The notes under the pieces were generated by a model. It did no database searches. It was not told the DNA's origin and saw nothing but the letters and a program-made list of their open reading frames with translations. Shown piece after piece: positions 17,020 through 54,739 of a stretch of 64,000 nt of DNA. This DNA comes from Bacteroidota bacterium. GTDB taxonomy: Bacteria > Bacteroidota > Bacteroidia > Chitinophagales > UBA10324. Position 1 is the first letter of the stretch. The number at the start of each line of letters is the position of its first letter. A program made the position numbers and the translations under genes. The stretch spans positions 1 to 64,000 of the forward strand of contig JAFDYS010000005.1 of assembly GCA_018267315.1 (NCBI GenBank), read 5' to 3'.

Positions 17020-17847
17020 TTATGCGGCCGATGCAGCGCCTTCTATTTTCGGTGCGAAAGCTTCATTAATCAGTATTGACGCCTGCTGCAACTTTTCTCT
17101 TCTCACACTGTATTGTTCTTTCAACTCGCTGATGCGTTTTTGCAAACGTGCTTTCCTTTTTTCTCTCGCACTCTTCATCTGCTGTTCCATCTTTTCCACT
17201 TTCACGGCCAGCTCCTTGTTCACTTCATTCAGCTTCCTGTCGATCTGTTGCTTTGTGATTTGTGCTTTCTCCTTCAGATTGGTGAGCGCCTGGTTCATTT
17301 TAGCTTTGTCGGCATCCATCGCGTCTTTCATTTCTTCTCTCCATTCGTTGTATTCAGCCACAAGCGCTTCCGATTCACGCTTCAGCTGATCGTCTTCCAC
17401 TTCACTGCGAAGGCGGCGGAACACAATGCCGTTCAGTTCTCCAAGCTTTGTATCTACCGGCACCGTCCAGCTTTCATCTATTTCAGCGATGAGCGCCGAT
17501 TTTCCTTTTTGCAGTTTCGAGGAAACTTCATTCACGAAGTCCACATTTACATTGTCGCGGTCAATGTCGAATGCCAGACCCGCCATGGCACCGGTGCCTG
17601 CTCCTATCACGAGGCCGACAGGACCTGCCACCAAGCCAATGAGACTTCCGACGAACAACCCGATGGCAGTACCTGCGCCGTTGTTGTCTGCAGCTTGCTG
17701 AAGGTTTACTTTTCCATTTGCATCAGTACTCACCACCGCATTTGCATACAAAGTGATGTCACCGTTGTTGTTCAGTTCTTTGAGGGCGCTCTGACCCTGG
17801 AATGCCTGTGTTTCGGTGTCGAAAACGGCTACTAACATTTTTTCCAT
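17020..17847 (-). CDS. DUF1269-type protein with coiled coil
   Basis: A 275-aa protein. The N-terminal part (MLVAVFDTETQAFQGQSALKELNN...DITLYANAVVS) matches the DUF1269 lead. It is followed by a Gly-rich hydrophobic segment, GLFVGSLIGLVAGPVGLVIGAGTGAMAGLAFD, of the kind that inserts in or packs on membranes. From about residue 160 on it is a long Lys/Glu-rich coiled coil (MDADKAKMNQALTNLKEKAQITKQQ...RKARLQKRISELKEQ). The N-terminal domain is described in stress-linked proteins; no enzymatic role is visible. It is followed by a strong terminator and preceded by the HdeD-like gene. Confidence 0.82.
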   Translation of the reverse strand: MEKMLVAVFDTETQAFQGQSALKELNNNGDITLYANAVVSTDANGKVNLQQAADNNGAGTAIGLFVGSLIGLVAGPVGLVIGAGTGAMAGLAFDIDRDNVNVDFVNEVSSKLQKGKSALIAEIDESWTVPVDTKLGELNGIVFRRLRSEVEDDQLKRESEALVAEYNEWREEMKDAMDADKAKMNQALTNLKEKAQITKQQIDRKLNEVNKELAVKVEKMEQQMKSAREKRKARLQKRISELKEQYSVRREKLQQASILINEAFAPKIEGAASAA

Positions 17848-42636: not shown

Positions 42637-42657
42637 TAATCATCCCATTCCTAAAAC

Positions 42658-42698
42658 AGCAGAGCGCCGTCCCGTTTCCGGGATGGCGCTTCTGCTTT
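42658..42698 (+). terminator. bidirectional terminator
   Basis: Long stem AGCAGAGCGCC-GTCCCG with its near-perfect complement around TTTC, ending in TTT, 21 bp after the protease stop. It separates two convergent genes. Confidence 0.75.
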
Positions 42699-42745
42699 GA
42701 ACCAAACCAATCCTGACTCTGAGTTGAAAATCTTTGCCGCGCCGA

Positions 42746-50767: not shown

Positions 50768-52564
50768 TTATGGGTGCAGAATGGCAACCTTTTGTGAATT
50801 CACCAGTTGATTATTGAAGTAAAATGTGGCCAGGTAAATGCCTGATGGAATCATGCTTCCGATCCAAATCTGTTTTTGGGCTGAACCTTTTCTCAAGATT
50901 TGATGAGTTGAAAAAACTTCTCTCCCTGAGGGATCATTGAACAATAATAAACAAGAACCATCCTCTGCCACATTCACCTGAATCACAATGAGGCCATTGT
51001 CAGAAACAAACACACGGAATTCATTTTGATTGCCGGAAAAACCTTCCACTTCAACATTGCTGCAGGATGTATCACTGCACCCGCCATCAGCCTGAATGAC
51101 GAGACAGATTTCATACTCGCCCGATTCACCCAGCGTTAATTGAGTTGTGGGGTGCGAATCGCTGAAGAATTCTCCATTGATGTACCAGAACCAATGAAGT
51201 ATTTCGCCTTCCGACTCTGAACCATTTAGATAGATATTGAAACCATCTGTCTCTGCCGAAAAATGCGCGGCACAATCATCATTCTGCATTCCGATTTCAA
51301 TTGCCTGACAAATAGTGTCAACACAACCCGAAGCCGTTTCAATAACCAGGCAAAGGTGATGCTCGCCGCTTTCATTTGCGGTAACATGAGTTTCGGGGCC
51401 GTCGTCACTGGCTAATACATCATCCAAATACCAATGCCAGCTTACCACATCCCCTGTGGATTCATTTCCGTTCAGGTGAATCGTAAAGCCATCGAGCCAC
51501 CAGCTGAAATGCGCAGTGCAATCAGTTTCTTGCCCAATCACTATGGCCTGGCACAGCGTGTCAAAACATCCTGAAGCTGTTTCGATGATGAGGCAAACAT
51601 GATGTTCACCGCTTTCATCCACGGTCACGTGTGTTTCAGGCCCGTCATCACTGAAGAGATTTCCGTCCAGATACCATTGCCAGCTAACCACATCACCCGT
51701 GGATTCATTTCCGTTCAGGTGAATCGTAAAGCCATCGAGCCACCAGCTAAAGAATGCAGCGCAATCGTCCTGCTGAGGGTCGATTACGATCGCCGCACAC
51801 AATGAATCAACACAGCCCGTTGACGTTTCTATTCTCAGGCAAACGTGATGCTCTCCGCTTTCGTCTGCCGTCACCTGTGTCTCCGGACCGGATTGACTGA
51901 AAAGCCCGCCATCGAGATACCAATGCCAGCTTATTACATCGCCGGTGGATTCGCTACCATTCAAGTGAATGACATACCCATCAATGGTCCAACTGAAGTG
52001 TGCCTGGCAATCGCCGTTTTGCGAATCAATTACGACGGCCTGGCACAATGTGTCAACACAACCGGTAGCAGTTTCAATGACAAGGCAAATGTGATGCTCG
52101 CCGCTTTCACCAGCCGTTACCTGTGTCTCAGGGCCTGCGTCGCTGAATAAATCTTCATCCAGGTACCAATGCCAGCTAACGACATCACCGGTGGATTCAC
52201 TGCCGTTGAGATGAATGGTATTCCCGTCAAGCCACCAGCTGAAATGTGCTTCGCAGTCGCCATCTGATGGTTCCACTGAAATGGTTTGGCAAAATGTGTC
52301 AGTACACCCGGCAAATGTTTCAATTACGAGACAGAATTCATACTCTCCGTACTCGCTCACTGTTTTATGTGTCTGTAATGGGGTATCACTGAACAAATCG
52401 CCATTCATGTACCAGCGCCATTGCGAAATATCTCCGGCCGATTCAGAACCATCCAGGTTTATGGTCATTCCGTCTGTTTGCCAGGTGAAGTATGCTTCGC
52501 AGGCTGATGCCTTCAATCCGTTGAGAAGGATAATCAGTAAAAGCGGGAGCAAACGGTGCGTCAT
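50768..52564 (-). CDS. secreted six-repeat (PKD-like) protein with T9SS-like end
   Basis: A 598-aa protein. After the signal peptide, residues ~22-513 are six tandem units of about 82 aa: C..HFSWWLDGxTIHLNGSEST, GDVVSWHWYLDGxLFSDxGPET, then ESGEHHVCLVIETASGC and DTLCQAIVI. Each unit has four conserved Cys, suggesting two disulfides. The E-S-T-G-D and W-x-W-Y strands resemble PKD domains. The first and last units are most diverged. The final ~80 residues look like a sorting domain (IWIGSMIPSGIYLATFYFNNQLVNSQKVAILHP), though the NP motif is missing. Probably structural or adhesive. Confidence 0.85.
   Translation of the reverse strand: MTHRLLPLLLIILLNGLKASACEAYFTWQTDGMTINLDGSESAGDISQWRWYMNGDLFSDTPLQTHKTVSEYGEYEFCLVIETFAGCTDTFCQTISVEPSDGDCEAHFSWWLDGNTIHLNGSESTGDVVSWHWYLDEDLFSDAGPETQVTAGESGEHHICLVIETATGCVDTLCQAVVIDSQNGDCQAHFSWTIDGYVIHLNGSESTGDVISWHWYLDGGLFSQSGPETQVTADESGEHHVCLRIETSTGCVDSLCAAIVIDPQQDDCAAFFSWWLDGFTIHLNGNESTGDVVSWQWYLDGNLFSDDGPETHVTVDESGEHHVCLIIETASGCFDTLCQAIVIGQETDCTAHFSWWLDGFTIHLNGNESTGDVVSWHWYLDDVLASDDGPETHVTANESGEHHLCLVIETASGCVDTICQAIEIGMQNDDCAAHFSAETDGFNIYLNGSESEGEILHWFWYINGEFFSDSHPTTQLTLGESGEYEICLVIQADGGCSDTSCSNVEVEGFSGNQNEFRVFVSDNGLIVIQVNVAEDGSCLLLFNDPSGREVFSTHQILRKGSAQKQIWIGSMIPSGIYLATFYFNNQLVNSQKVAILHP
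51025..52501. repeat. six 246-bp tandem coding repeats
   Basis: DNA-level repeats inside the gene above. Units 2-5 are most alike in sequence, which implies recent expansion or homogenisation. Unit number may vary between strains. Confidence 0.8.
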
Positions 52565-52607: not shown

Positions 52608-53870
52608 TTACACAAGTGCTGGCCGTTCGGTATGGTGTACGAAGAACGAATCCTCCAACGGCACCTGTGTGGCAAGCAGATCTTCCAGTTTTTCTCTTCT
52701 GCGAATCAACGCAGCACGCCCGTCGTGCACCATCACTTCTGCCGGCCGCAGGCGCGAATTGTAATTGTTACTCATGGTGAATCCATATGCACCGGCATTG
52801 CGGATGGCGAGGATGTCGCCTTCGCGCACTTCATTCAATTTTCGATCCCAGCCGAATGTGTCGGTTTCGCAGATGTAACCAACCACCGTGTAAACCCGCT
52901 GCAACCCGTATGGATTACTCACATTCATAATGTGGTGATAGGCATCATAGAACATCGGGCGGATGAGATGATTTTGACCGCTGTCCACTCCCACAAATAC
53001 GGTGGAGATCGTGGGCTTGATCACATTGGCCTTCACCAACAGGGTTCCACATTCACTCACCAGAAATTTGCCGGGCTCCACACACAGATCCAGATCCCTT
53101 CCATATTCAGCACAGAATTCAAGAAACCGTGATGAGAGATTCCTTCCCAGATCATCCATATCAGTCACCACATCATCTGGCTTATAAGCCACTTTGAATC
53201 CGCTGCCGAAATCAATAAAGCGGAGATGAGGAAATTCTTTGGCCAGGTCAAACAGTATTTCTGCGCCCTGCAGAAATACCTGGCTGTCGAGAATATCAGA
53301 CCCGGTGTGCATGTGCAACCCGATGATGTTTAGGTCGCAGGTTTTCACCACACGCATCAAATGGCGCCGTTGAAAAATGGAGATTCCGAATTTACTGTCA
53401 ATGTGCCCGGTTTGAATGTGATGATGCCCCCCCGCTTCAATATGGGGTGTGATCCGGATGGCACAGGGCACGGTGCTGCCATACACATTACCGAAACGCT
53501 CCAGCATGGCGATGTTGTCGATATTCACGGTAACGCCAAGTCTTACGGCCTCCTGAATTTCCTCAAACGAAACGCCATTGGGTGTAAACAGGATTTCGTC
53601 TGCACGATATCCCGCGAACAATCCAAGTTGTACTTCTTCAATGGAAACCGCATCCAGACCGGCACCAAGCCCGCGGAGTAATTTCAAAATGGACAGGTTG
53701 TTCAGCGACTTGCAGGCGAACTTCACTTTAAGTGGAACGAAATGAAAGGCATCACACATTTTGCGGTACTGTCTACGGATCGTTCCTGTATCATAGACAT
53801 AAAGCGGGGTTCCGAATTGTGCGGCTAATTCTTCAGCGGGAACACCACCGATCAAATACTGTTCATTCAT
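52608..53870 (-). CDS. lysA: diaminopimelate decarboxylase
   Basis: Last step of lysine synthesis: decarboxylation of meso-diaminopimelate, PLP-dependent. A 420-aa alanine-racemase-fold enzyme. PLP Lys54 lies in FACKSLNNLS. LHMHTGSDI and FIDFGSGFKVAY follow, the phosphate-binding region is EPGKFLVSECG, and YICETDTFGWDRK supplies the second-subunit Cys. NAGAYGFTMSNNYNSRLRPAEV is the closing signature. Arg of the EPGR motif is Lys here. It is preceded by a possible leader peptide and hairpin (53899-54047). Confidence 0.95.
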   Translation of the reverse strand: MNEQYLIGGVPAEELAAQFGTPLYVYDTGTIRRQYRKMCDAFHFVPLKVKFACKSLNNLSILKLLRGLGAGLDAVSIEEVQLGLFAGYRADEILFTPNGVSFEEIQEAVRLGVTVNIDNIAMLERFGNVYGSTVPCAIRITPHIEAGGHHHIQTGHIDSKFGISIFQRRHLMRVVKTCDLNIIGLHMHTGSDILDSQVFLQGAEILFDLAKEFPHLRFIDFGSGFKVAYKPDDVVTDMDDLGRNLSSRFLEFCAEYGRDLDLCVEPGKFLVSECGTLLVKANVIKPTISTVFVGVDSGQNHLIRPMFYDAYHHIMNVSNPYGLQRVYTVVGYICETDTFGWDRKLNEVREGDILAIRNAGAYGFTMSNNYNSRLRPAEVMVHDGRAALIRRREKLEDLLATQVPLEDSFFVHHTERPALV

Positions 53871-53898
53871 TATGGTTGGTCAATTGGTTTTGTAATGA

Positions 53899-53924
53899 AG
53901 AAGCCCGCTTGATGGCGGGCCTCC
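53899..53924 (-). terminator. lysA: hairpin in the lysA leader, possible attenuator
   Basis: Minus-strand stem GGAGGCCCGC/GCGGGCTTCT (10 bp with two G-U pairs), loop CATCAA, then TCATTAC. It lies in the lysA 5' leader, 28 nt downstream of the small leader frame. The U-tract is mostly inside the stem, so as a terminator it would be weak. The segment GCCCG of its 5' arm can pair with CGGGC at the end of the leader ORF. Confidence 0.4.
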
Positions 53925-53951
53925 GGTTTCTTAGATGTTCAGATTAAGATG

Positions 53952-54047
53952 TCACCTGCCCGAAAATGTCAGACGCTTCTTGGCATTCTTATGCTTCAGC
54001 AAATTCATGCGTGTAAATGTATCCCATAATTTGACTGCATCAGGCAT
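53952..54047 (-). CDS. candidate lysA leader peptide
   Basis: A 31-codon frame from the ATG at 54047, or 18 codons from the ATG at 54008 (MNLLKHKNAKKRLTFSGR). The 18-residue form has four Lys codons including a pair. A -7-like TACATTTA (54014-54021 on the minus strand) precedes the ATG at 54008. It is followed after 27 nt by the hairpin and then by lysA. It could be a leader peptide that senses lysyl-tRNA, or a chance frame. Confidence 0.35.
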   Translation of the reverse strand: MPDAVKLWDTFTRMNLLKHKNAKKRLTFSGR

Positions 54048-54081
54048 GAGATTTCAACACGGTCTGCCGTATAGTAACTCA

Positions 54082-54089
54082 TATATTTG
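54082..54089 (+). promoter_or_regulatory. -7 box TATATTTG
   Basis: Exact TAnnTTTG box 14 nt before the ATG at 54104. No convincing -33 element at the right distance. Confidence 0.5.
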
Positions 54090-54103
54090 TAAAAAAGTCC
54101 TCT

Positions 54104-54739
54104 ATGGTAATTGAACGAATGGTGTTTAACCTGAAATATGGTATGGAAGAACAATCATCCGGTTTGTGGAACAGGATGTTTGAGTTGATGCCCCAATCAA
54201 CCGCCAACATGAAAGTTCCGGTGCGCATTTACCACAGTCTCACGGGAAGAACCAGTAGGGTTTGCCAGGACATGCATATCAAGAGCATCAATGATCACAA
54301 CCCGCTCATGTATTACTGGGTCATCAATCCGAGAATTCAGGAATTGTACCGTGAATTTTCAGTGCTCTGCGATTCATCACAACGGGAGATGTATAAGATT
54401 GAACATGAAGTGGGAACAATCAAGAACTTTCAGGGCACCATTACCGAGCGGCACACATTCCATCTGCATTTCGGACATGCCAAGCCAAGTATTTCAATCT
54501 GGAAACAACTGTTGGATGAAAATGCAAGCGGCAACGGACCTTACCTCAGAATGTTGACGGATATTGTTGGTCCCAACTACATCCTTATTGTGGAAGCCAG
54601 TTACGCCAACAAATCGGATTGCACTCTGGGAAGGCCATTCTGGAAAGCGAGTAAAACACTCAATGATTTACATGCTCAATTCATGGAGCACTGCGGCAGC
54701 GCTGAGCTCGAATATTTCCTGGTTGACTATGAGAATTAA
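54104..54739 (+). CDS. unknown soluble protein
   Basis: A 211-aa protein with no signal peptide or membrane segment. It consists of two similar alpha/beta halves: VIERMVFNLKYGMEEQSSGLWNRMFELM... and ERHTFHLHFGHAKPSISIWKQLLDENASGNGPYLRMLTDIVG. Both open with a strand then an amphipathic helix, which suggests a dimeric alpha-beta barrel (NIPSNAP- or ABM-like) arrangement, a weak analogy. No catalytic motif is seen. It is divergent from lysA. Confidence 0.72.
   Translation: MVIERMVFNLKYGMEEQSSGLWNRMFELMPQSTANMKVPVRIYHSLTGRTSRVCQDMHIKSINDHNPLMYYWVINPRIQELYREFSVLCDSSQREMYKIEHEVGTIKNFQGTITERHTFHLHFGHAKPSISIWKQLLDENASGNGPYLRMLTDIVGPNYILIVEASYANKSDCTLGRPFWKASKTLNDLHAQFMEHCGSAELEYFLVDYEN

Follow-up and report, generated by a model that had tools for sequence, protein, structure and literature searches.

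The classical ribosome-mediated attenuators (trp, his, leu, ilv and thr; Proteobacteria and Actinobacteria) have in common a short frame rich in codons for the cognate amino acid, segments that can pair as 1:2, 2:3 and 3:4, and a terminator before the first gene. RNA-level control by lysine is known chiefly as a riboswitch, and the Bacteroidota mostly initiate translation without a Shine-Dalgarno site. According to a section of PMC3766115, the lysine riboswitch (L-box, RF00168) controls lysine genes in other phyla by premature termination, and a passage of PMC1262725 states that the lysine operons of Actinobacteria showed no conserved RNA structure upstream. Part of PMC10117765 describes, as a possible leader peptide, a frame containing Thr and Lys codons that precedes an aspartate dehydrogenase gene, and the long 5' UTRs of B. 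thetaiotaomicron are described as containing short frames 'reminiscent of leader peptides' in a part of PMC7366714, which also gives the -7 box as TAnnTTTG. Our literature search, which covered papers available without subscription and not their supplements, returned no earlier report of a lysine leader peptide in Bacteroidota, and the novelty of such a peptide is therefore provisional.

Here we consider the leader of lysA within the window, i.e. the whole stretch of 64,000 nucleotides of a Bacteroidota genome (contig JAFDYS010000005.1) that was analyzed. Judged by its TIGRFAM and Pfam matches, the gene is certainly lysA. The original prediction had described an 18-codon frame on the minus strand before this gene, with four Lys codons of which two are adjacent, and a 10-bp hairpin 27 nt beyond it; all coordinates of the frame proved correct and the hairpin was confirmed. 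The features are the following:

52608-53870, minus strand: lysA, diaminopimelate decarboxylase (TIGR01048, 390.7 bits against a cut-off of 297.9; Pfam PF02784 and PF00278)
53952-54008, minus strand: leader frame MNLLKHKNAKKRLTFSGR including its stop (ATG at 54008, stop at 53954-53952, 18 codons)
53976-53981, minus strand: Lys codons 10 and 11 (AAG AAG, side by side), at which the ribosome is proposed to stall
53994-53996 and 53988-53990, minus strand: the other Lys codons of the leader
53958-53974, minus strand: possible 1:2 hairpin, with 53974-53969 paired with 53963-53958 in the predicted fold
53958-53962, minus strand: segment 2 (CGGGC), with its pairing partner at 53916-53920 in the 5' arm of the next hairpin (complementarity and predicted fold)
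53899-53924, minus strand: terminator-like hairpin with 10 pairs and, behind it, a weak pyrimidine tail (predicted fold)
54014-54021, minus strand: weak candidate -7 box TACATTTA, one mismatch from TANNTTTG, 5 bases before the leader ATG
54082-54089, plus strand: exact -7 box TATATTTG, belonging to the divergent gene 54104-54739

The Lys residues are encoded by codons 5, 7, 10 and 11, so that the short frame before lysA is rich in codons for the cognate amino acid (4 of 18). In the predicted fold a hairpin of 6 pairs lies immediately 3' of the Lys-Lys codons, at the site of the 1:2 'protector', and the arms of the terminator-like hairpin (53924-53915 and 53908-53899) form 10 pairs, two of them G-U, with a stability of -18.7 kcal/mol. 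As had been noted originally, lysA lacks a -7 box directly before it: an exact TANNTTTG is absent from the minus strand of 53871-54104. The TACATTTA box is weak evidence for a promoter, because boxes with one mismatch occur around 4.9 times per kb of strand across the window, and a second one, TGAATTTG at 54007-54000 on the minus strand, lies inside the leader frame. The gene upstream (54104-54739, plus strand) is divergent and the hairpin is thus not the ordinary terminator of a co-directional upstream gene. Its product is a protein of 211 aa without Pfam or NCBIfam match, for which matches were found in only 3 of the 59 other relatives searched. The window also holds, at 50768-52564 on the minus strand, a gene for a protein of 598 aa with several similar PKD-like repeats of around 85 aa each.

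We consider it probable that this leader acts as a ribosome-mediated transcription attenuator that reads the lysine supply. RNA polymerase would start near 54008 and a ribosome would follow it into the leader frame. With charged tRNA-Lys in ample supply the ribosome would reach the stop codon and cover segment 2, after which the hairpin at 53924-53899 could form and transcription would end before lysA. Under lysine shortage, stalling of the ribosome at the Lys codons would leave segment 2 free to hold the 5' arm of the hairpin for a time, so that the polymerase could pass into lysA. In favor of this reading are the encoded amino acid, which is the cognate one for lysA, and a layout equal to that of the conserved leaders of another family (f24, see below); against it stand the lack of a homologous leader in relatives, the weak antiterminator, the lack of an exact -7 box and the weak U-tract. 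The parts and their spacing are observed in the window, and the same layout is conserved before lysA in f24; from these we infer the window's promoter, translation, stalling, termination and antiterminator.

With respect to the antiterminator, the claimed pairing between CGGGC (53962-53958) and GCCCG (53920-53916) is present as an isolated complementarity of 5 bp, but it does not rise above chance, as 443 of 1000 shuffled spacers folded equally well. In the predicted fold the pairing forms before the 3' arm of the hairpin is made, and it is overtaken once the hairpin is complete. The U-tract had been called weak, and indeed the terminator scan reported no terminator at this hairpin despite the strong stem. 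Considering the fact that other gene-end hairpins of the window also have short mixed tails (for example between the convergent genes at 42637-42745, after 26565 and downstream of the gene 17020-17847), the weak tract does not exclude termination. In a search with the Rfam models the only match of the window at gathering score was a tRNA, and no leader-related match appeared at E-values up to 5; a lysine riboswitch and a T-box were accordingly rejected for the leader. The exact stem pattern of the hairpin occurs once in the genome, and a genome-wide repeat was rejected.

A LysA match was found in 38 of the 60 genomes searched as relatives. Within the family of the window genome (f1), 5 of the 15 other members have distant matches only (27-32% identity) and 10 have none; the window genome is the sole sampled member with a close ortholog of its LysA and has the Lys leader. 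Likewise, genome G076 is the sole sampled member of family f13 with a close ortholog of the window-type LysA (5 others are without) and also has a Lys leader. When the DNA of the window leader was searched against 396 genomes of the order, no match was credible; the best foreign one (L157, E 4e-4, 45 bp) was discarded as it lies at an unrelated place. Other compared lysA loci have a -7 box of their own a few dozen nt before the lysA start. At one locus (L042) a sequence judged by eye to resemble a tRNA gene lies around 40-120 nt before lysA. From one set of lysA loci, 10 of 283 were dropped (7 without ATG, 3 short). Since no close relative keeps the window leader, the search was widened to lysine attenuators before lysA across the Bacteroidota. 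In 288 usable lysA regions (alternative starts accepted, 3 of 309 dropped as short and duplicates removed) we found 28 terminator-like sites, in 25 loci, without a preceding long co-directional frame. A Lys-rich frame preceded three of these (the window, L133 and L264) against 0.2 expected, and the other residues tested gave 0 or 1 each.

Locus L264 led to family f24, which may be the Weeksellaceae. There, 280 of the 296 genomes searched have LysA, and 78 upstream regions, 76 of them distinct, were collected. A Lys-rich leader of 13-25 aa with 4-8 Lys was present in 39 of the 76, a proportion that is not a prevalence, as the regions were mostly taken from the top-scoring lysA genes among the 280 genomes with a match. 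The carriers are L264, L332, L336, L337 and 35 of the loci L352-L421, with two main recurring leader types, like MKVQKSIKKGASKGKKFFSKANSVD (L413) and MQNFKQKQTGKKGAVKFSKVWNT (L381). The TANNTTTG box is found 22-37 nt before the leader start in 38 of the 39 leaders, the leader stop is followed after 21-33 nt (median 28) by an intrinsic terminator, whose end lies 7-25 nt upstream of lysA in every one. A strict scan recovered 37 of the 76 regions (35 with box), versus 0.3 in shuffles and none on the reverse strand. The terminator stem is conserved as a structure, with pairing in 94.0% of the alignment cells and 36 double-change cells, a level that was reached in none of 500 shuffles, although one pair of columns is mismatched in 19 sequences. 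The f24 leaders had no match to an Rfam family.

Each of the 39 leaders has, at its stop or immediately behind it, a segment capable of pairing over 5-9 bp with the 5' arm of the terminator. The mean score of this segment is 14.9, versus 10.5 (sd 0.38) for shuffled segments, and falls only modestly, to 13.7, when arms are swapped between leaders. Folding in the stalled state was modeled for four leaders: L381 kept its predicted antiterminator after the 3' arm was made, while in L365, L413 and L352 the antiterminator formed first and was then overtaken, like in the window. Within the leader type of 23 aa the third codon positions vary most (5, 6 and 10 variable sites over 22 codons), whereas the type of 25 aa, including the divergent L352, shows a mild third-position excess only. 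The 37 distinct regions without the element come sometimes from the same genus as carriers, and in several a -7 box lies closely upstream of lysA instead. The features by which a leader-peptide attenuator is recognized (a cognate-codon frame, a terminator, a pairing segment and conservation across species) were all found in f24, and on this comparative evidence the family very probably has a lysine-specific ribosome-mediated attenuator before lysA. The f24 leaders are a stronger finding than the window copy. For f24, L133 and the window alike, we infer termination, translation and the response to lysine.

Locus L133 belongs to G076, of the same order as the window, and its LysA is the best-scoring foreign match in the order search (66%). 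Downstream of a divergent gene come, in this order, TATATTTG, MMIYKHKSSKRFLPKW, a canonical terminator with a T run, and lysA. Folding predicts three states. In the absence of a ribosome the leader forms the terminator along with a 1:2 hairpin; stalling of the ribosome at Lys codon 10 gives rise to an antiterminator (-20 kcal/mol) that persists even with the terminator complete; and once the ribosome is at the stop, the terminator returns. None of 1000 shuffled spacers folded equally well. Judged by these modeled states, L133 reads as a textbook attenuator and makes a strong single case. Its peptide and that of the window share K-H-K at positions 5-7 and K at position 10 when set in register, with a permutation p of 0.0003 that is somewhat flattered by the selection of L133 for its Lys content. 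The two lysA genes are not sisters in the LysA tree, which was made from the best 110 of 156 sequences and is poorly resolved there. Between the terminator and lysA, at 1390-1500 of the locus, L133 has further strong inverted repeats, and the whole leader folds far better than its shuffles (z -6.5). No Lys leader was obvious when the aspartokinase and dapA loci of G076 and of the window genome were inspected.

When compared with the 39 f24 sequences (alignment A1), the window is alike in the gene, the order of the parts and their spacing. Relative to lysA, the window leader starts at -138 (f24: -123 to -157) and stops at -81 (f24: -67 to -83), the gap from stop to hairpin is 27 nt, close to the f24 median, and the hairpin runs from -54 to -28 (f24: starts at -55 to -36, ends at -25 to -7). 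There is, however, no alignable sequence, the window peptide is shorter, and its U-tract and antiterminator are weaker. The covariance model R1 of the f24 leaders found no match in the window up to an E-value of 10. Run on 91 of the fetched loci, the same model gave the L133 leader 20 bits (E 0.9 in 559 kb), the fifth of 14 matches.

The most serious rival to an attenuator in the window is coincidence: the hairpin might be a remnant, such as the terminator of a co-directional neighbor that has since been lost, and the Lys-rich frame accidental or the degraded tail of such a gene. In the compared loci, secDF or some other co-directional gene often precedes lysA; its C-terminus is Lys-rich and its terminator lies 10-80 nt upstream of lysA, so a Lys-rich tail plus terminator can simply be a gene end, and the two occur together in 10 of 186 other leaders. 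The motif KxKxxKK by itself was discarded as a diagnostic, as it is also present in SecDF C-termini and out-of-frame reads. Moreover, when the strict scan was run on 278 non-f24 lysA regions (250 nt or longer), its two hits were the window and L133, with 0.6 expected by shuffling (0.2 with box), and the window alone is thus not beyond chance in that set. A comparison of lysA leaders had been proposed originally, with a non-conserved frame named as the outcome that would speak against the attenuator. The leader is indeed without conservation in the 396 genomes of the order, and 276 of the 278 non-f24 loci are without such an element, but in f24 the element is conserved.

Several observations nevertheless speak against coincidence. 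The gene upstream of the window leader is divergent, and the in-frame stretch that precedes the leader has no Pfam match and is closed off by stops, by which a tail of an upstream gene was rejected. With the hairpin fixed and the preceding sequence shuffled, a qualifying Lys frame (at least 4 Lys, at least 20% Lys, stop 15-40 nt before the hairpin) arose in 0.025% of 20,000 shuffles, and when the entire leader of 233 nt was shuffled frame and hairpin arose jointly in none of 1000, be it that these criteria, the Lys thresholds among them, were fixed after the window had been seen; the same thresholds or looser ones served to find L133 and the f24 cases. Finally, the window layout equals that of f24.

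Much less probable is that the element is unrelated to lysA and represents a separate small gene or small RNA that ends at a terminator of its own. A promoter-like box, a short frame and a terminator would equally describe a short transcript, and the L133 element ends as far as 130 nt before lysA; yet the position of the f24 element, which ends 7-25 nt before lysA in 39 of 39 and has a pairing segment at the stop, and the choice of lysine, the residue cognate to lysA, argue against it. An effect of the hairpin on lysA translation or RNA stability, in place of termination, is the least probable reading, for although the hairpin ends only 28 nt before lysA and has a weak U-tract, the start region of lysA is unpaired in the predicted fold and the canonical U-tracts of the f24 and L133 terminators point to termination.

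The originally proposed lysine attenuator before lysA thus finds support as a kind, in f24 (39 of 76) and L133, while the window leader itself is without conservation in direct relatives. The comparisons lean toward a lysine-specific attenuator before lysA in Bacteroidota, in the role that the lysine riboswitch has in other phyla; it would be conserved in one family and have arisen or survived separately in scattered lineages (the window, L133), with the spacing kept and the sequence not. Equal layout without shared sequence is relevant to the ease with which new attenuators evolve, and in the conserved f24 leaders a test bed for lysine attenuation is at hand. Among the RNA elements of the Bacteroidetes, the Bacteroid-trp motif of Rfam is presumably linked to trp genes. 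It is presented as a candidate RNA element in a section of PMC2864571 and has no match in the window. The lysine riboswitch binds its ligand directly and works without a leader peptide, and likewise has no Rfam match in the window leader. The leaderless trpL of Sinorhizobium meliloti, described in part of PMC10117765, indicates that transcription of an attenuator may begin at the AUG of its leader, as the window transcript presumably would, but it concerns tryptophan and an alphaproteobacterium. From the classical attenuators, the window differs in the amino acid, lysine, in the phylum, Bacteroidota, and in its weak 2:3 pairing; if the proposed reading is true, one amino acid and one phylum would be added to ribosome-mediated attenuation.
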